Of a DNA stretch of 46,657 nt, positions 4,178 through 21,870 are shown one piece after another (the first letter of the stretch is position 1; every line of letters starts with the position of its first letter). Made by a program: the position numbers and the translations under genes. A model generated the notes under the pieces. The model did no database searches and had not been told where the DNA came from. It was given only the letters and a program-made list of their open reading frames with translations. This stretch comes from a virus: positions 1 through 46,657 of the IMG/VR virus record IMGVR_UViG_3300032086_004149, one strand, 5' to 3'.

Positions 4178-4242
4178 GCGATCCGGATTCACTATGTCAT
4201 ACGGACTAGATCCGAATTCAGCCCATCATCCGGACGCTTTTT
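4178..4242 (+). terminator. Terminator-like element, copy A of the 53-nt repeat family
   Basis: The 53-nt core runs 4181-4233. Its outer stem is CCGGAT/ATCCGG extended by GCG (4178-4180) and CGC (4235-4237), and a T-run follows at 4238-4242. The inner hairpin is ATACGG / CCGAAT (one mismatch) around the 7-nt loop ACTAGAT. The same core length and layout recur on the minus strand at 10183-10235 and 42721-42773. The stem shape plus T-run suggests an intrinsic terminator for the upstream mRNAs, placed immediately before tRNA-Gln. Copy A has the shortest outer stem of the three. Confidence 0.6.
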
Positions 4243-4314
4243 AACCCTGTGGTGTAATTGGTAACACATCGGACTTTGACTCCGACATTCCAAGTTCAAG
4301 TCTTGGCAGGGTTA
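4243..4314 (+). tRNA. tRNA-Gln (anticodon TTG)
   Basis: A full cloverleaf can be drawn: acceptor AACCCTG / CAGGGTT (4243-4249 and 4307-4313), anticodon stem TCGGA/TCCGA with loop CTTTGAC (anticodon TTG at 4276-4278), and T arm CCAAG/CTTGG with loop TTCAAGT. The discriminator is A4314. CCA is not encoded, so it would be added after transcription. It reads CAA codons, which an AT-rich phage favours. Confidence 0.93.
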
Positions 4315-4318
4315 TTAT

Positions 4319-4401
4319 GCCGGAATGGTGGAATTGGTAGACACGCGAAATTTAGGATTTCGTGCCCCACGGGCGTGCAGGTTCGAGTCCTGTTTCCGGT
4401 A
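4319..4401 (+). tRNA. tRNA-Leu (anticodon TAG)
   Basis: The acceptor stem GCCGGAA pairs with TTCCGGT (one G-U). The anticodon stem CGAAA/TTTCG carries loop TTTAGGA with anticodon TAG at 4353-4355. A long variable arm (GCCCCACGGGC) marks the type II structure of tRNA-Leu, and the T arm GCAGG/CCTGT has a standard TTCGAGT loop. CCA is not encoded. Only four bases separate it from tRNA-Gln, and the tmRNA acceptor piece follows at once, so the three are probably co-transcribed and processed together. Confidence 0.93.
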
Positions 4402-4479
4402 ATCCTGCTCGGCAGGATAAGCATGTAGAGGTTATTGCTAAAATCAGACTGGACGGGGGATCGTTGCCCCCCACCTCCA
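4402..4479 (+). ncRNA. ssrA: tmRNA acceptor piece (3' half of a circularly permuted ssrA)
   Basis: This piece carries the features normally found at the 3' end of tmRNA. After a hairpin ATCCTGC-TCG-GCAGGAT (4402-4418) comes AAGCATGTAG, nearly universal near tmRNA 3' ends. Then CTGGAC leads into a T arm GGGGG/CCCCC (4455-4459 and 4467-4471), followed by the acceptor strand CACCTCC (4472-4478) and discriminator A4479. Its partner strands lie about 600 bases downstream: CACCTCC pairs with GGGGGTG (5076-5082), giving the G3-U70 alanine identity pair; GCATGT (4421-4426) and GTTATTGC (4431-4438) pair with 5115-5120 and 5106-5113. The T loop is ATCGTTG, with bases 54 and 58 swapped relative to TTCGATT. 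CCA is not encoded. The exact 5' end is uncertain. Confidence 0.85.
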
Positions 4480-4504
4480 ATTTTTTCTTACGATCTCCAT
4501 CGTT

Positions 4505-4530
4505 TTTGGTGTATAGTATAATATAAACTA
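4505..4530 (+). promoter_or_regulatory. Possible promoter for the HNH gene and tmRNA coding piece
   Basis: The stretch TGGTGTATAGTATAATATA contains TATAAT-like and TATAGT-like -10 boxes and shares GGTGTATA with the region before the DUF1501 gene (6203-6210). It lies inside the segment separating the tmRNA pieces. If active, it would make the coding piece independently of the tRNA/acceptor transcript. No convincing -35 box is seen. Confidence 0.35.
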
Positions 4531-4554
4531 CTATTGCCTAAAATGGAGATTGTG

Positions 4555-5100
4555 ATGAAAACAGTAACACTCGTCTGCGAAACCTGTAATGAAGAATTTG
4601 AAAAATCGAAAGGAGAATATAACAGAAGAAAAAGACTGGGGAAAAATAAGTTTTATTGTAGTTTGTCCTGCTCCGCAAAGAGTCCAGAGAATCTGAAGCA
4701 TATTGTTGAGAACAAATCAGATTTTCCAATTTGGGAGCATTCTCATAATAGAAGGGATGAACTGTCGCCATTTAGAGAAACTTTTAGGAGACTAAAAAAT
4801 AGGGACAAAGAAGTTACTGTAACTTTAGAGTCTCTGAAAGAAATTTGGGACTCTCAAAAAGGCATTTGTCCTCTTACTGGCTGGACATTAGAACTTCCAA
4901 CTCAATCTAAAAATTACAAACTAAAATTAAGAACAGCAAGTCTTGATAGAATTGATAATTCAAAAGGGTATGCTGTAGACAATGTTAGATTTGTTTCTGT
5001 TATGTTTAATCTTGCTCGAAATCAATTTTCAGATGAAGACGTTATAGAATTCGCACGAGCGGTTACTAAAACAACGGGGGTGAATGGAATTGACAGGTGA
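4555..5100 (+). CDS. HNH homing-type endonuclease within the tmRNA intervening segment
   Basis: The ATG at 4555 has GGAG seven bases upstream; an upstream TTG (4534) in frame is less likely. The 181-residue protein has an N-terminal zinc-finger-like part (CETCNEEF then FYCSLSC, about residues 8-45) and a C-terminal HNH domain typical of phage homing nucleases: GICPLTGWTLELP (about 105-117), ASLDRIDNSKGY (about 132-143) and DNVRFVSVMFNLARN (about 146-160). It should nick or cut double-stranded DNA. It fills the segment between the two tmRNA pieces, and its last 25 bases overlap the 5' end of the tmRNA coding piece (5076 onward). This suggests a selfish gene lodged where inserted sequence is tolerated, being outside the mature RNA. 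Confidence 0.85.
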   Translation: MKTVTLVCETCNEEFEKSKGEYNRRKRLGKNKFYCSLSCSAKSPENLKHIVENKSDFPIWEHSHNRRDELSPFRETFRRLKNRDKEVTVTLESLKEIWDSQKGICPLTGWTLELPTQSKNYKLKLRTASLDRIDNSKGYAVDNVRFVSVMFNLARNQFSDEDVIEFARAVTKTTGVNGIDR

Positions 5101-5212
5101 CGTAGGTAATGGCTGCATGTCGAGGTTGGTCAGTGGGCCTCGTAAAAAGCTGACCAAAAGTTAAATGCAGAACCTAGTTTTGCTCTGGCAGCGTAAGTTG
5201 TCACGAGGAGTT
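5076..5212 (+). ncRNA. ssrA: tmRNA coding piece (5' half of a circularly permuted ssrA) with tag frame
   Basis: The segment begins GGGGGTG (5076-5082), the 5' acceptor strand, then AATGGAATTGACAGG, matching the tmRNA D-loop region. P2 strands follow at 5106-5120. Pseudoknot PK1 is clear: CGAGG/CCTCG (5121-5125 and 5138-5142) interleaved with TTGGTCAG/CTGACCAA (5126-5133 and 5150-5157), with the conserved GTAAAAAG linker. The tag frame resumes at GCA 5167, preceded by TAAAT (U at -5 and A at -4, as in E. coli), and reads AEPSFALAA before TAA 5194-5196. With the tRNA-borne Ala, the tag would be AAEPSFALAA, ending in the ALAA recognised by ClpXP. The 3' end of the piece is set only approximately by the following terminator. 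Confidence 0.85.
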
Positions 5213-5242
5213 GCCCGTCCTTGTCACCAAAACGGGCTTTTT
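5213..5242 (+). terminator. Intrinsic terminator after the tmRNA coding piece
   Basis: GCCCGT (5213-5218) and ACGGGC (5232-5237) form a stem with a 13-nt loop followed by TTTTT (5238-5242). It would end the transcript carrying the tmRNA coding piece, upstream of the dCMP deaminase gene. Confidence 0.75.
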
Positions 5243-5264
5243 ATTTATTAAAGGAAGACTGAGC

Positions 5265-6216: not shown

Positions 6217-6267
6217 TGCCGTCATTAATGTAATCAAGTGTGCTACCTATACAAGAAAGGTCGAGTT

Positions 6268-7515
6268 ATGAATAGAAGGTCATTTATCAAACATGGTGCA
6301 TTTGTTGGTGGGTCATTTTTAACATACGGTAATGTTTTTGCCAGTTCCAATAATAATCCAAATCCAGATGACACAGCAGTATTGTTTGTGTTTTTAAATG
6401 GTGGAGCAACACACATTGAAACATTTAACCCTGTACCACAGGCACCAGTGGAATTCAGATCAACTACAGGTGCTATTGACACAAATGTACCCGGACTGCA
6501 AGTTGGTGGACTATTTAAGAATCTGGCCCAACGAGCAAATAAAGTGGTGATTCCAAGAGCATTTGGTCATAAAGACCAAAACCATGCAAGTTCTGTCCAC
6601 TGGGTCGTAACGGGCGAACCTAACTTTGGTGCTGGTACAAATTCAAAATGGCCCAGTCACGGTAGTGTTATGAGTCGCTACCACGGCACCAATGCCGCAA
6701 ATGGACTTCCAACATACATTAAACTGGGTAAATTTCAGCACGATGCCGCCGCTTGGCTAGGAGGTAAATACACTGGATACGATGCCGATGCACAAGGTAG
6801 AAAAGATCTTCAGCTTATAAGTGGAAGTGATAGATTCAAGTCAAGAATAAACATATTGGATATTGTAGATAGTAATTTCACCAAAACTAATAAATCCCAC
6901 CAAGTCGTACAAGATTGGGGTGATTTGAAAGGTCAAGCAATCAATGTTGTATTAGGTGATGCATCAGAAGCATTTAAAGTAGAAGAAGATGCTAAATATA
7001 AGGATTTTCAAGCATCTCAATTTGGCAAAGATTCACTTACAGCAATTAGACTTCTTGAAGCTGGAGCAAAATTTGTTACGATTACCACTGGCGGATGGGA
7101 TATGCATAGCAATATCGTTGGAGGATTAAATAATCGTCAGGTTGAGCTAGATAATTACTTGGGCAAGATTATGGATACTCTTGAAGAAAGAGGCATGTAC
7201 AAAAGAGTTATGCTTGTAGTCACTTCTGAATTTGGAAGAACTCCAAAAGTAAATGGCAATGCTGGACGAGACCATTTTGGTAGAGTTGCTCCTTTAATGA
7301 TTAGTTGTGGTAGTTATGATATGGGAAGAACTATTGGAACCACCACGGCAAATGCTGACGATTTTGATCAAGATAGAACAACTCCAGAAGATTTAACTTG
7401 GACTATTTTTGATCATTTGAACATGAAAAAAGATACTAGATATGTTGCGACAGATGGAAGACCACACGATATTGTTAAAAAGAATGCTAAAAACATTTTG
7501 AAGGATTTTTCGTAA
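6268..7515 (+). CDS. Tat-exported DUF1501 family protein
   Basis: The 415-residue protein begins MNRRSFIKHGAFVGG followed by a hydrophobic stretch ending VFAS, a good twin-arginine signal, so it should be folded in the cytoplasm and exported. The mature part has the DUF1501 pattern: VFLNGGATHIETFNP near the start, HASSVHWVVTGE, GGWDMHSN in the middle, and VTSEFGRTPKVNGNAGRDH toward the end. The family has an alkaline-phosphatase/sulfatase-like fold and is very common in Planctomycetes. The ATG at 6268 follows GAAAGG. The stop overlaps the next ATG. An exported enzyme of this family in a phage is unusual; it may have been acquired from the host. Biochemical activity is not established. Confidence 0.88.
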   Translation: MNRRSFIKHGAFVGGSFLTYGNVFASSNNNPNPDDTAVLFVFLNGGATHIETFNPVPQAPVEFRSTTGAIDTNVPGLQVGGLFKNLAQRANKVVIPRAFGHKDQNHASSVHWVVTGEPNFGAGTNSKWPSHGSVMSRYHGTNAANGLPTYIKLGKFQHDAAAWLGGKYTGYDADAQGRKDLQLISGSDRFKSRINILDIVDSNFTKTNKSHQVVQDWGDLKGQAINVVLGDASEAFKVEEDAKYKDFQASQFGKDSLTAIRLLEAGAKFVTITTGGWDMHSNIVGGLNNRQVELDNYLGKIMDTLEERGMYKRVMLVVTSEFGRTPKVNGNAGRDHFGRVAPLMISCGSYDMGRTIGTTTANADDFDQDRTTPEDLTWTIFDHLNMKKDTRYVATDGRPHDIVKKNAKNILKDFS

Positions 7516-17784: not shown

Positions 17785-19335
17785 TCAAATCACAAAAACC
17801 TTATCAACAATGAACGAATTACGCTTCTTATCCTTAATTTCTCCAGAAAGAAGAAGAGTAGCGTCATTATAGATTATATCCCTGTGCTGCCCGTATACAT
17901 CAGGAAATATTATAATATTTTCAGATTCTCCAGAATCATCTTCTACGGACAGAAATGCCATTACATCTCCGTTTTTTGTTTTATGTTCTCTTACATTTTT
18001 TACAATCACTGCCACAACACTGCTGCCCATTTTACCATCGGCTATTTCTTTACATGTTGTGTTGGCGTGACAGGCGTCAGAGCAACTGTTTAGTTCGGAG
18101 TGGTTGATAGAGTAACCAAGAAGTCTTTCCTCTGTTTTGGCATAAACTACAGAGTTGTCACTAAGGCTTCTGCCGGGATTTTCAAGTCTGGATAAAACGC
18201 TTTCTACCTTGACGACTCTGTTTTGGCTGGAAATAAATCCACCATCTTTTTTGGTTCCGTACGATAGAAGCTTTTTAATGATATCGGCAACGTCACCATC
18301 GATATTTAGGTTTTCTTCAACAGCCTGCATTTCTTTCTTGGTCAGTTCCATAAAACAATGGTACTCGTGAAGCATTGCTGTTCTGGACTTTCCAAGACCA
18401 CCAAACGCACCAACCTTGATCAAGTTCTCAACGGCCCGCTTATTAACATTTCTCAAAACCTTAATTAGCACATTAGACCAGTCAAGTTCATTATCATTAA
18501 GCTGACCAAGTTTGTCTTTTAGCTGAAGAAGGTGAGCCTTGCCTACATTCTTGACGTTACAAATGCCGAAGTGGATGGCTCCCTCTGTCCAAGAAAAATT
18601 CTCTTCCAAGACTTTAAAACTGGGACCATAAACGTCGATGTTTTCAGCTTTGGCCGCCATGATCAATTGACGCTTTTCCATATCGGGGTCAATTTTGTCG
18701 CTGGCACCGCCCAACCAGTTCTTAAAGAACCTACTGGGATGATGACAACGTAACCATGCTGACCAGTATGCCATTTCAGCGTACGCTACAGCGTGAGATT
18801 TGTTGAAAGAGTAGCGTGCAGACTTTTCAATCATGTCGAAAATCTCTACAGCCTTTTCTTCTTCAATGCCATTATCTTTACAACCATCGATATACTTCAC
18901 ACGAACTTTTCTCATCAAGTCAGCTTTTTTCTTACCAATAGCTTTTCTTAAGTCATCCGCTTCTTGAAGTGAGAACCCTGCCATAACTTGAGCAATTTTC
19001 ATCGCCTGTTCTTGATATACAATAACTCCGTAAGTTTCCTTAAGTAGTTCATCAATACTCTCATGAAGACTGGGAATTTCTTCTTTGCCAAACTTACGGT
19101 CGACAAAGTGCTGAGTCATCGACTTGCCGTCAACAATAGCCTTGAGAGTACCCGGACGAATAATACTAATCAATGCCGCTAACTCAAGCATATTCTCTGG
19201 CTTTAAAGCTTTTGCCCAAGTTTTACCAAGATGTCCTTCAATCTGAAAAACACCTTTGACTCGACCTTCACCGATCATCTTCCAGACTTCTGGATCTTCT
19301 TTGTCAACACTTGTGATATCAATTTCCAAATGCAT
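17785..19335 (-). CDS. dnaE: DNA polymerase III alpha subunit, C-terminal part (fingers, HhH, OB)
   Basis: This 516-residue protein starts at the position that would follow the palm domain in DnaE: EIDITSVDKEDPEVW then GVFQIEGHLGK (about residues 28-38). The fingers motifs are present: LISIIRPGTLKAIVDG, ETYGVIVYQEQAMKIAQVM, LRKAIGKKKADLM and SARYSFNKSHAVAYAEMAYW. A later HhH region and an OB domain (SVEDDSGESENIIIFPD) follow. It contains no catalytic Asp; those lie in the product of 20005-21870. The two halves would have to associate. Its start overlaps the exonuclease stop by 17 bases. Confidence 0.92.
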   Translation of the reverse strand: MHLEIDITSVDKEDPEVWKMIGEGRVKGVFQIEGHLGKTWAKALKPENMLELAALISIIRPGTLKAIVDGKSMTQHFVDRKFGKEEIPSLHESIDELLKETYGVIVYQEQAMKIAQVMAGFSLQEADDLRKAIGKKKADLMRKVRVKYIDGCKDNGIEEEKAVEIFDMIEKSARYSFNKSHAVAYAEMAYWSAWLRCHHPSRFFKNWLGGASDKIDPDMEKRQLIMAAKAENIDVYGPSFKVLEENFSWTEGAIHFGICNVKNVGKAHLLQLKDKLGQLNDNELDWSNVLIKVLRNVNKRAVENLIKVGAFGGLGKSRTAMLHEYHCFMELTKKEMQAVEENLNIDGDVADIIKKLLSYGTKKDGGFISSQNRVVKVESVLSRLENPGRSLSDNSVVYAKTEERLLGYSINHSELNSCSDACHANTTCKEIADGKMGSSVVAVIVKNVREHKTKNGDVMAFLSVEDDSGESENIIIFPDVYGQHRDIIYNDATLLLSGEIKDKKRNSFIVDKVFVI

Positions 19336-20002
19336 TCTTGAAATTCTTTCTGCTTGCTGTAGTTCTCAACATTCTCATAGTTCTACAAAACAACTCAGCG
19401 GTCATAATAACGTCTGACATAGCATCATGTGCGGTGCCTTCTGAATATCCCATATAACCTCTAATAAGATTATCGGCAGACAGAGAGTTTACATCCTTGT
19501 TATTCTCGAATAATGCAAACATAAAGTCAAGCATATCTATGCTATGAATTCGCTGAAAAAGGTTTTGACCGCCTCTTTTTTCGTCACTAGGACCAAAATT
19601 ATAAGGTGCTTGACAACAAAGTCTGTCTACAATAATTGAGTCAAATCCTTTGATGTTGTATCCTACAGAGATTGGTGCTGACCAGTTGTTGCCCTTAAAG
19701 TTGTGCTCGTTAACATACTCTACAAAGTTTTGCCAAACTCCTTTTGTTGCTGGTGCCTTTTTGAGTATCTCTTTTGTTTTTCCGTGTACGGCAACAGCAC
19801 CATCTTCTAGTGGATCTAAGTTAAGTTCAGCACACTTTTTTTCAGTAAAGATAGGTTTCATGAGTGATTGGAACTCAGTTCCTTTTTTGATCTCAAGTTT
19901 TCTACCATGCACCACAACTGCCGCTATTTGTACAGGCTGAGTAGTATGTGGATTAGCACTTGTAGTTTCAAAGTCATAGACAATATAGTCACGGTAATTC
20001 AT
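19319..20002 (-). CDS. DnaQ-type (DEDDh) 3'-5' exonuclease
   Basis: The 227-residue protein has all DEDDh motifs: ExoI YDFETT (Asp and Glu, about residues 9-14), ExoII GYNIKGFDSIIV (about 114-125) and ExoIII GTAHDAMSDVIMTAELF (about 188-204) with the His and final Asp. It would proofread for the polymerase. Its gene sits exactly between the two polymerase alpha halves, and is coupled to both (two-base gap upstream, 17-base overlap downstream), so all three proteins should be made in similar amounts. It may bridge the two halves. Confidence 0.9.
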   Translation of the reverse strand: MNYRDYIVYDFETTSANPHTTQPVQIAAVVVHGRKLEIKKGTEFQSLMKPIFTEKKCAELNLDPLEDGAVAVHGKTKEILKKAPATKGVWQNFVEYVNEHNFKGNNWSAPISVGYNIKGFDSIIVDRLCCQAPYNFGPSDEKRGGQNLFQRIHSIDMLDFMFALFENNKDVNSLSADNLIRGYMGYSEGTAHDAMSDVIMTAELFCRTMRMLRTTASRKNFKNAFGN

Positions 20003-20004
20003 AA

Positions 20005-21870
20005 TTATGCTTCCTGTTGTTCAAAATGGTTATTTATTTCTCCTACGGTTTTTGATATCTTAGACAAAAGAGATACCCCAAGAATATCGAATTTTACACA
20101 TCCAATAGACTCAAGATCTCCCATCTCCATACCAGCTATTTTCTCGTCACCTCTCGATGCTTTGACCATTGGACAAATTTTCTCAAGATTATGGGACGCA
20201 ATTACCACCCCAGCGGCATGTTTCCCTTGTGTTTTAAAGATTCCCTCCATTCTCATAGCTTGCTCAAATACTTTAGCATATTCACCCTGTAGAGTTCCAT
20301 CTTCGTCAATCCAGCAGTAGTCAATCAAGGCATTCTTGTCATTTTCTAATGCCCAGCGAATAACAGAAGGCTCATCCATTTCTTCAAGAAGGTCTGAGAT
20401 AGACGCTTCGTTTGGAATCTTCTTGGTTATTTCGTTCATCTGATCAAAAGAACATGATTCATTTACTCTGAGAACTTCCTTAAGGATAGACCGACCTGCC
20501 AGTCGACCAAACGTCAACATCTGACAAACCTGAGAAGATCCATACTTTTCTCTGAGATAATCAATAACAGCGTCTCTATAGTCTGGTGGAAAGTCTACGT
20601 CAATATCAGGAAGCGACACATGATCCGCTGTATTTCTTCCTTCATTGTAGAATCTTTCGAATAGAAGTCCATACTTGATTGGATCAAGAAGAGTAATTCC
20701 AGTCAGGTAGCAAACCAAAGATCCACCACCCGATCCACGGGCGGGACCGATCAGACAACCTTGATTCCTAAAGTGATTGACATAATCCTGTACGATAAGA
20801 AAATAGCCAGCAAGATCTGCTTTGCTGATAACCTCAAGCTCACGCAAAACACGGTCTTTGTAGGCATCATAAAGCTTGGGATCAATGTTTGTCATGATCA
20901 ACCTCTTCCACCCCTGTCGACAAAGTTCCTTTAGGTATTCATCTTCAGAGCTACCATCCGGAGTTTCAAAGGTAGGAAGTTTTGGTTTAGAAAGAATCTC
21001 CAAACCATCACACAAAGACACAACTCTGTTTAGATTCTCAATACATTGCTGTCCGTAGTTTTCCAGAAGAAAATACTTAGGCTTGATGTAATGATTGCTA
21101 CTTCGGATAAACTTGAGAGACTCCAGATCTTGCTTCTCGTTGATCTTCTGATCCAGTTTTTTCATGGTGGTCTTCAGCTTTGTACAAACCAAAACCCTAT
21201 GATCAACAGCATCTTTTCTTTCAGGATAATAGGATGATGTGTCTGGCAAAGTAAACAACTCTTGAGGATCAATCTCATGAATGATATCGCACATCAGTTT
21301 GGTGACAGGAAATGAATCATTATCCACATTGTTGATTTCAAGGAAATAATTCTCGCCAAAGTAATCCTCCATCTTTTTCACATGATCTTTAGCAACTTGC
21401 TCGTGATTGTCATCCAGACACTCAAAAAGACCTTCATTGTCCAGTGATTCAAAAATACACTGACTATCCGGAAAAACACGAGAAAACAAGGCACTACCAA
21501 CATAACCGTCTATGCAGATAAAGTTAGAAGGAGTGATTACCTCCATCAGCTTTTCCAGAGAAATCTTGGCACCCTTATCGTAGTTTTCTGGGTCATTAGA
21601 TACAGATACCACAGTCAGAAGTTCCATCCAAGCGTCATTGTTCCTACACAACAGCGTCACTCTTGAGCCATTATCAAGAACAACTTCACAACCAATAATG
21701 GGCTTGATGTCTTGATTTTTACAGGCTTGAATAAAATTCACACAGCCGCTGACAGTGGAAAGATCTGTCAAAGAGGCATGATCATATCCAAGTTTTTTAC
21801 AGGTTGAAACAATCTGCTTGGATCTAGAGGTTGATACCAAAAGAGAATAATGACTGTGATTTCTTAGCAT
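20005..21870 (-). CDS. dnaE: DNA polymerase III alpha subunit, N-terminal part (PHP and palm)
   Basis: The 621-residue protein starts MLRNHSHYSLLVSTSRSKQI, the PHP domain; some PHP metal residues look changed (SLTDLSTVSG where ALTDHGN is usual), so PHP proofreading is probably lost. The catalytic palm is present: GPARGSGGGSLVCYLTGI (about 375-392), LPDIDVDF with Asp422 and Asp424, and CVKFDILG with Asp595, the third catalytic Asp. The protein stops 26 residues after Asp595, before the fingers. The missing part is encoded at 17785-19335. No intein motifs are seen at either end, so this is a gene split rather than a split intein. Confidence 0.93.
   Translation of the reverse strand: MLRNHSHYSLLVSTSRSKQIVSTCKKLGYDHASLTDLSTVSGCVNFIQACKNQDIKPIIGCEVVLDNGSRVTLLCRNNDAWMELLTVVSVSNDPENYDKGAKISLEKLMEVITPSNFICIDGYVGSALFSRVFPDSQCIFESLDNEGLFECLDDNHEQVAKDHVKKMEDYFGENYFLEINNVDNDSFPVTKLMCDIIHEIDPQELFTLPDTSSYYPERKDAVDHRVLVCTKLKTTMKKLDQKINEKQDLESLKFIRSSNHYIKPKYFLLENYGQQCIENLNRVVSLCDGLEILSKPKLPTFETPDGSSEDEYLKELCRQGWKRLIMTNIDPKLYDAYKDRVLRELEVISKADLAGYFLIVQDYVNHFRNQGCLIGPARGSGGGSLVCYLTGITLLDPIKYGLLFERFYNEGRNTADHVSLPDIDVDFPPDYRDAVIDYLREKYGSSQVCQMLTFGRLAGRSILKEVLRVNESCSFDQMNEITKKIPNEASISDLLEEMDEPSVIRWALENDKNALIDYCWIDEDGTLQGEYAKVFEQAMRMEGIFKTQGKHAAGVVIASHNLEKICPMVKASRGDEKIAGMEMGDLESIGCVKFDILGVSLLSKISKTVGEINNHFEQQEA

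Follow-up and report, generated by a model that had tools for sequence, protein, structure and literature searches.

The window analysed here, 46,657 nucleotides of the virus record IMGVR_UViG_3300032086_004149, raises the question whether a tmRNA gene that is split into two pieces in permuted order, with an endonuclease gene between them, can be a working gene, and how the endonuclease gene came to lie there. The earlier note on this DNA had read a permuted two-piece phage tmRNA from the letters alone, with the 3' domain before the 5' domain and an HNH gene that fills a spacer of about 600 bases and overlaps the coding piece by 25 bases. This reading is borne out: positions 4421-5240 hold a circularly permuted two-piece tmRNA gene with the piece order acceptor, spacer, coding, both halves match the tmRNA model RF00023 in permuted order, and the spacer measures 596 nt, with the HNH stop codon 25 nt inside the coding piece. 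The features of the locus are as follows.

4242-4315, plus strand: tRNA-Gln(TTG), found by ARAGORN and Rfam; together with tRNA-Leu directly 5' of the acceptor piece
4318-4402, plus strand: tRNA-Leu(TAG), found by ARAGORN and Rfam; the same Gln and Leu pair occurs in the HNH-less relative L266/L274
4421-4479, plus strand: tmRNA acceptor piece, from sequence reading, covariance model and helix comparison; candidate mature 5' end in the range 4403-4421
4421-4428, plus strand: 3' strand of P2, within the acceptor piece
4455-4471, plus strand: T arm, GGGGG ATCGTTG CCCCC, within the acceptor piece
4472-4478, plus strand: acceptor strand CACCTCC, followed by the discriminator A4479
4480-5075, plus strand: intervening spacer, 596 nt, predicted to be excised from the pre-tmRNA
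4492-4552, plus strand: predicted RNA hairpin, fold z -6.1, with similar folds obtained in 11 further loci
4555-5100, plus strand: putative homing-type endonuclease gene of HNH type (PacI-like beta-beta-alpha metal), 181 aa, from phrog_3322 (E 2e-21), the AF2 model and dN/dS
5076-5240, plus strand: tmRNA coding piece with the 5' acceptor strand GGGGGTG (5076-5082), D-loop region, P2, PK1, tag and PK2
5113-5120, plus strand: 5' strand of P2, within the coding piece
5121-5125/5138-5142 and 5126-5133/5150-5157, plus strand: PK1, within the coding piece
5167-5196, plus strand: tag reading frame AEPSFALAA with stop TAA, after the resume region, read from the sequence
5213-5217/5233-5237, plus strand: PK2, GCCCG with CGGGC, followed by a T-rich tail

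Across the two pieces all seven pairs of the acceptor stem form, including the third-position pair G5078.U4476 that had been pointed out before, and GCATGTAG (4421-4428) pairs with CTGCATGT (5113-5120) in a P2 helix that extends upward, again as previously read. The tag ends in a hydrophobic degron of the ALAA type. The T-rich tail at PK2 may have a second role as terminator, and processing of the upstream tRNA-Gln and tRNA-Leu would help to define the 5' end of the acceptor piece. Elsewhere in the window, DNA polymerase III alpha is divided between two reading frames (20005-21870 and 17785-19335, minus strand; together 17785-21870), between which the gene of a DNA polymerase exonuclease subunit is located (19319-20002). 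Furthermore, a 425-aa ORF (6238-7515, plus strand) starts with a Tat-like signal, MNRRSFIKHG..., which is unusual in a phage, and had no PHROG match below 0.001.

The covariance-model check proposed in the earlier note gave matches for both halves. With RF00023, cmscan scored the 5' half (5076-5260) at 54.2 bits (E 2e-20) and the 3' half (4403-4482) at 22.2 bits (E 7e-7). The permuted model RF04321 (tmRNA_permuted) produced a single match over 4421-5196, with the 596-nt spacer inside it, at 26.6 bits and thus below the cut-off of 47. ARAGORN and the Rfam gathering scans did not detect the gene in the window, presumably owing to its long spacer. A further tmRNA, including an intact one-piece ssrA, which had been named as a finding that would speak against the reading, was found neither in the window nor in the overlapping 107-kb contig G001. 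A nucleotide search of a phage collection returned tRNA, deaminase and distant HNH matches only.

The score under the cut-off, together with a T loop (ATCGTTG) that deviates from TTCGA, could mean that the two pieces are degenerate tmRNA remnants flanking an HNH gene. However, scores below the RF04321 cut-off are confined to HNH-carriers with a long insert, while the HNH-less relatives reach 100.4 (L162), 89.2 (L279), 87.6 (L266) and 76.0 bits (L159). Moreover, tag endings of the ALAA or AMAA type are kept in L004, L005, L015-L017, L019, L266 and L279. When the helices of 11 phage-type permuted sequences were delimited manually, the T stem was paired in 55/55 cells, PK1 in 55/55 and 87/88, PK2 in 55/55 and the inter-piece P2 in 83/88, compared to 59-79% of cells in a control with partners swapped between sequences. 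Double-sided changes occur at four of the eight P2 positions (shuffles: 3/2000). Judged by this covariation, four to six tmRNA helices are retained through compensatory changes over the 11 sequences, and the pairing of acceptor and P2 type, whose loss in relatives had been proposed as a refutation, is kept in the same way. Decay of the gene therefore appears very improbable.

The same layout, an HNH gene in the spacer of a permuted tmRNA, was found in seven distinct phage lineages, i.e. the window (which equals L002 and L003), L004, L005, L015, L016, L017 and L019; further contigs of this kind were obtained by a protein search and four more by a profile search. The tmRNAs of these lineages are rather divergent in sequence, with their helices retained. 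Since six further lineages share the layout and the HNH-less relatives score 76-100 bits, it is not due to chance. These relatives, in which the same pieces occur without HNH as the earlier note had suggested to look for, differ in spacer length: 123 nt in L266 (contigs G034 and G035; also L274/L275), 19 nt in L279, 29 nt in L162 and 36 nt in L159. L266 is closely related to the phage of the window, with an approximately 72% identical helicase and the same upstream tRNA-Gln and tRNA-Leu. The PK1 region is near-identical between the HNH-less L162 and the HNH-bearing L016, and in its predicted fold the spacer of L162 simply prolongs the acceptor helix (z -3.3). The close viral relatives are mostly fragments or contigs of uncultivated phages.

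The protein encoded in the spacer matches endonuclease families in PHROG (phrog_3322, E 2e-21). Its AF2 model (pLDDT 84.7) has PacI as best PDB match in Foldseek (prob 1.00, TM 0.43/0.52, E 0.01), which assigns to it a predicted beta-beta-alpha-metal nuclease fold, and the HNH profile aligns with the PacI stretch DRSDSFEGYSPQNAR (E 0.047). Invariant residues of the family include C8, C11, C35, C39, D131, R132, I133, D134, G138, Y139, N143 and N152, resulting in a PacI-like active-site pattern D-R-I-D...GY..N. The family alignment holds no invariant His that could represent the classical HNH catalytic histidine and a Pfam search gave no match, hence DNA cleavage by this protein is only putative. 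The gene itself is, according to its substitution pattern, under purifying selection, with dN/dS of 0.30 between the window and L004 and of 0.18-0.30 within the spacer-HNH set.

The reading frame starts with ATG at 4555 and ends with the TGA at 5098-5100. The overlap with the coding piece amounts to 25 nt in the window and in L004 and to 8 nt in five lineages, where the TGA contained in GGGGGTGA, at the very beginning of the coding piece, serves as stop codon. Upstream of the frame, GATCTCCAT (4492-4500) forms one arm of the predicted hairpin and is paired with ATGGAGATT, the segment that surrounds the ribosome-binding site of the HNH gene, GGAG at 4545-4548. A ribosome-binding-site hairpin with an upstream arm of CTCC type was obtained in all 12 loci folded (z -2.4 to -7.8), and hairpins over the ribosome-binding site have been described for I-TevI, segB and mobE (PMC2988022). 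A -10-like TATAAT (4517-4522) was noticed in the hairpin loop by eye only, and the promoter scan found no sigma-70 promoter within the window spacer. In some loci the acceptor end occurs twice: approximately 20 nt past the real one, the hairpin contains it again in its 5' arm, e.g. as CCCGCCTCCATTTT (L036 2439-2470, L066 2446-2475, L015 2420-2455). As a mimic of the target site, this additional copy might act as an operator.

Where such a gene usually resides becomes clear from its 80 nearest viral relatives, at least 62 of which lie at a tmRNA gene (some contigs are near-copies): 7 in a permuted spacer, 50 by a standard tmRNA, 2 by an intron-bearing (group I) tmRNA and 3 directly 5' of a permuted tmRNA with a short spacer. 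Others are found by group I introns or after a tRNA. On the same strand, the HNH gene follows the tmRNA 3' end at a median of 61 nt (n=50, eight of them bacterial loci, e.g. from Laspinema, Scytonema and Calothrix), and in permuted genes it follows the acceptor end at 65-86 nt; in convergent cases it still faces the tmRNA 3' end. The HNH protein tree unites the HNHs of all seven spacers in one clade (99/96), nested within the HNHs of standard tmRNAs. The earlier note had proposed a selfish gene tolerated in the spacer. The HNH gene in the spacer stands, but by position and phylogeny it belongs to a family tied to tmRNA 3' ends and is not a random invader.

Several observations extend the range of this family. 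On the chromosomes of cyanobacteria (L095-L100 and L104; Laspinema, Oscillatoria, Scytonema, Calothrix) members occur 69-75 nt after a one-piece ssrA; the family is therefore not restricted to phages. In L064, L070 and L074 the HNH gene directly precedes the acceptor piece of a permuted tmRNA with a short spacer, and in L074 it also follows a tRNA gene, like in L076 and L086. In crAss-like and other phages (L010, L012, L022, L037, L043, L044, L054, L075, L081, L088, L093), HNH relatives are convergent with a group I intron which they abut, which suggests intron-associated homing; the idea that the HNH neighbours in crAss-phages hide an upstream tmRNA was rejected, because two of the three examined adjoin group I introns. 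In L041 and L050 the HNH gene lies beside tmRNA genes that also bear a group I intron in the T arm, as if nuclease and intron had a common target in collaborative homing. GOLLD RNA genes were seen no more than about 2 kb away from the tmRNA-HNH locus in L008, L042, L059 and L090, and a second, different HNH-like ORF (CSNCHMEHTH) downstream of the first, past the tmRNA, in L031 (3050-3410, plus strand) and L036 (after 3050).

The mobility of the element can be followed at filled and empty sites. The phage clade of the window, defined by its DnaB-like helicase, holds all four states, i.e. permuted and standard tmRNAs, each with and without HNH; in L080, the state standard with HNH is based on 92% DNA identity to L078 over the tmRNA-HNH region. 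In the near-identical phages L066 and L258 (92-95% identity), the HNH element is present and absent, respectively, at the same site. The empty site of L258 joins GCCGCCTCCA directly to CTTGACAATAGCAAC, and L066 has the element between these two; in short form, ..GCCTCCA is followed by CTTGACAATAGC in L258 and by the element and then CTTGACAATAGC in L066. Therefore, the left end of the element directly follows the discriminator base. On the right, the element ends before the stop codon of its HNH gene, and this codon is supplied by the flank. The pairs L031 (filled)/L257 (empty) and L025 (filled)/L264 (empty) show the same pattern. In the three pairs, 17 of 51 T-arm positions differ versus 40 of 903 in the rest of the tmRNA (Fisher p 5e-10), and the T-arm stems in the carriers are still paired despite these changes. 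An empty-empty control showed 1 difference in 17 T-arm positions versus 27 in 328 elsewhere. The change in the carrier T-arm fits target immunity, co-conversion, or both.

We consider it quite probable that the locus is a working permuted tmRNA gene belonging to a large phage, and that a free-standing endonuclease gene of homing type, with specificity for tmRNA 3' ends, has settled in the spacer that this gene discards. This explanation builds on the anatomy, the homologous filled and empty sites, the covariation, the T-arm change and the HNH phylogeny; DNA cleavage, homing, RNA processing and nonstop control are what we infer beyond these. The usual site of the family is directly after the discriminator base of one-piece tmRNA genes. 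The most likely cleavage target of the nuclease is the T-arm of HNH-free tmRNA genes, as is partly concluded from homing genes of the T4 type, and repair of the break from the donor would copy the HNH gene in and alter the T-arm on the way; the rewritten T-arm could then protect the carrier from cleavage. In a permuted gene, the site after the discriminator base coincides with the start of the spacer, from which RNase P and tRNA 3' processing would strip the insert, and we propose that the invader is therefore removed from the RNA. On read-through pre-tmRNA the ribosome-binding-site hairpin should silence the HNH gene. Furthermore, the HNH stop codon is borrowed from the coding piece, so that the spacer, once cut off by RNase P, should become a nonstop message and hence itself a substrate of trans-translation.

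Where the permuted gene itself came from is less clear. It shares the piece order of the permuted ssrA genes from alphaproteobacteria, betaproteobacteria and cyanobacteria, as the earlier comparison had it, but it is not clearly of any of these types. One explanation is that the permuted tmRNA was acquired from a bacterial host of a beta-like or alpha-like lineage and that HNH invaded the spacer later. L162 exceeds the cut-off of the beta_tmRNA model (97.5 bits, cut-off 84), L279 and L266 exceed that of the alpha_tmRNA model (73 and 61 bits, cut-off 50), and host-type permuted tmRNAs are known in phages (PMC9004378). In tree tests, which are weak with 155 columns, a clade of phage type and beta received a p-AU of 0.036, which speaks against the host, compared to 0.058 for all permuted tmRNAs as one clade, which is thus not firmly rejected, and 0.14 for the phage type alone. 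Against a host source, too, are comparisons of the joined 154-nt core of ten phage-type permuted tmRNAs with twelve alpha, beta and cyanobacterial permuted references: all ten are nearer to a standard tmRNA of their own phage clade (0.67-0.75) than to any reference (0.56-0.64). The phage type, moreover, mostly keeps CATGTAGA in the P2 strand and keeps a full PK1, both absent from these references. Hence, acquisition from a host appears rather doubtful, and a separate, phage-born permutation is likely but not established, with evidence of a suggestive kind. In the helicase tree a single origin of the permuted phages was rejected (p 7e-69); therefore, the permuted gene was either transferred among phages or originated repeatedly, and the tmRNA data (one clade, p 0.14) are compatible with both.

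A phage-born permutation could also have arisen by duplication, in which a tandem tmRNA-HNH-tmRNA lost its outer halves, so that permutation and HNH spacer originated in one step and the HNH-less genes lost HNH later. The order required, a standard tmRNA and then the same HNH, exists within the same phage clade (L031, L066), the HNH start is equidistant from the acceptor end in standard and permuted forms, and the similarity of the permuted cores to the clade's standard tmRNAs agrees with it as well. However, HNH-less permuted genes with short ordinary spacers appear at several places of the phage tree (e.g. L162), and a duplicated intermediate was not seen among the loci examined; an extra permuted-model match in L040 was rejected as such a tandem, because it corresponds to the 5' portion of a standard tmRNA. 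The permuted call by ARAGORN in L061 was not trusted. Furthermore, the HNH of L019 groups with those of L005 and L015-L017, while its helicase and tmRNA group with the window and L266. By these trees the HNH has moved independently of its tmRNA and therefore enters ready-made permuted genes. We regard the one-step duplication as improbable. Colonisation of an existing permuted gene is the reading we prefer. A wider version of it can be offered only tentatively: a phage-born fourth lineage of permuted tmRNAs, derived from the standard tmRNAs of one clade, may coexist with a T-arm-specific endonuclease drive across standard, intron-bearing and permuted genes, in which RNase P cleavage removes the stop codon of the nuclease, and maturation and trans-translation restrain it.

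Permuted tmRNAs in phages have been published, for example in the Methylophilales phage Melnitz, the ssrA of which resembles the alphaproteobacterial permuted tmRNA (PMC9004378). The supposed novelty of the locus is thereby limited to the arrangement: in a literature search largely confined to papers outside subscription, neither an endonuclease gene in a permuted tmRNA spacer nor an endonuclease family at tmRNA 3' ends turned up. One permuted spacer is reported to contain a tRNA-Ala gene and another a repeat, and no endonuclease gene (PMC11915505). Besides group I introns, the discarded spacer of a permuted gene would represent a second route by which a selfish nuclease gene can reside in an RNA gene of essential type. 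The work also defines a widespread endonuclease family at tmRNA 3' ends in phages and some cyanobacterial chromosomes. The filled and empty pairs give a precise insertion point and, with the T-arm, a candidate target for in vitro testing, and the occurrence of standard and permuted tmRNAs in one phage clade makes the origin of tmRNA permutation directly testable.

Compared to known permuted tmRNAs (RF04321; alpha RF01849, beta RF01850, cyano RF01851), the window shares the piece order, the inter-piece acceptor stem with G3.U70 and the ALAA tag end, but it differs in its spacer of about 600 nt with a protein gene and in keeping the full PK1 and the CATGTAGA P2 strand, like standard tmRNA. The two-piece tmRNA of Melnitz is likewise permuted and phage-borne, with no HNH reported. 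Among tmRNAs with a group I intron in the T loop, 36 of 883 carry a homing endonuclease gene, of the LAGLIDADG family (PMC11915505). They share with the window a mobile endonuclease gene that is tied to the T arm and removed from the RNA, which in the window is predicted; there, however, the gene sits in a self-splicing intron, whereas the window has no intron and removal would need tRNA-processing enzymes. HNH genes known within host genes resemble it in the embedding, the sporadic presence and the hairpin that hides the ribosome-binding site, but in the window the target is a non-coding RNA gene, the stop codon is borrowed and the nuclease family is another one. Finally, F-CphI and collaborative homing (DHHRN family, PMC6083498) offer a free-standing phage endonuclease beside its target, with similarity to Endo VII (phrog_1035), as here; the DHHRN histidines, in contrast, are absent from the HNH protein of the window, the pattern of which is the PacI-like D-R-x-D...GY..N.
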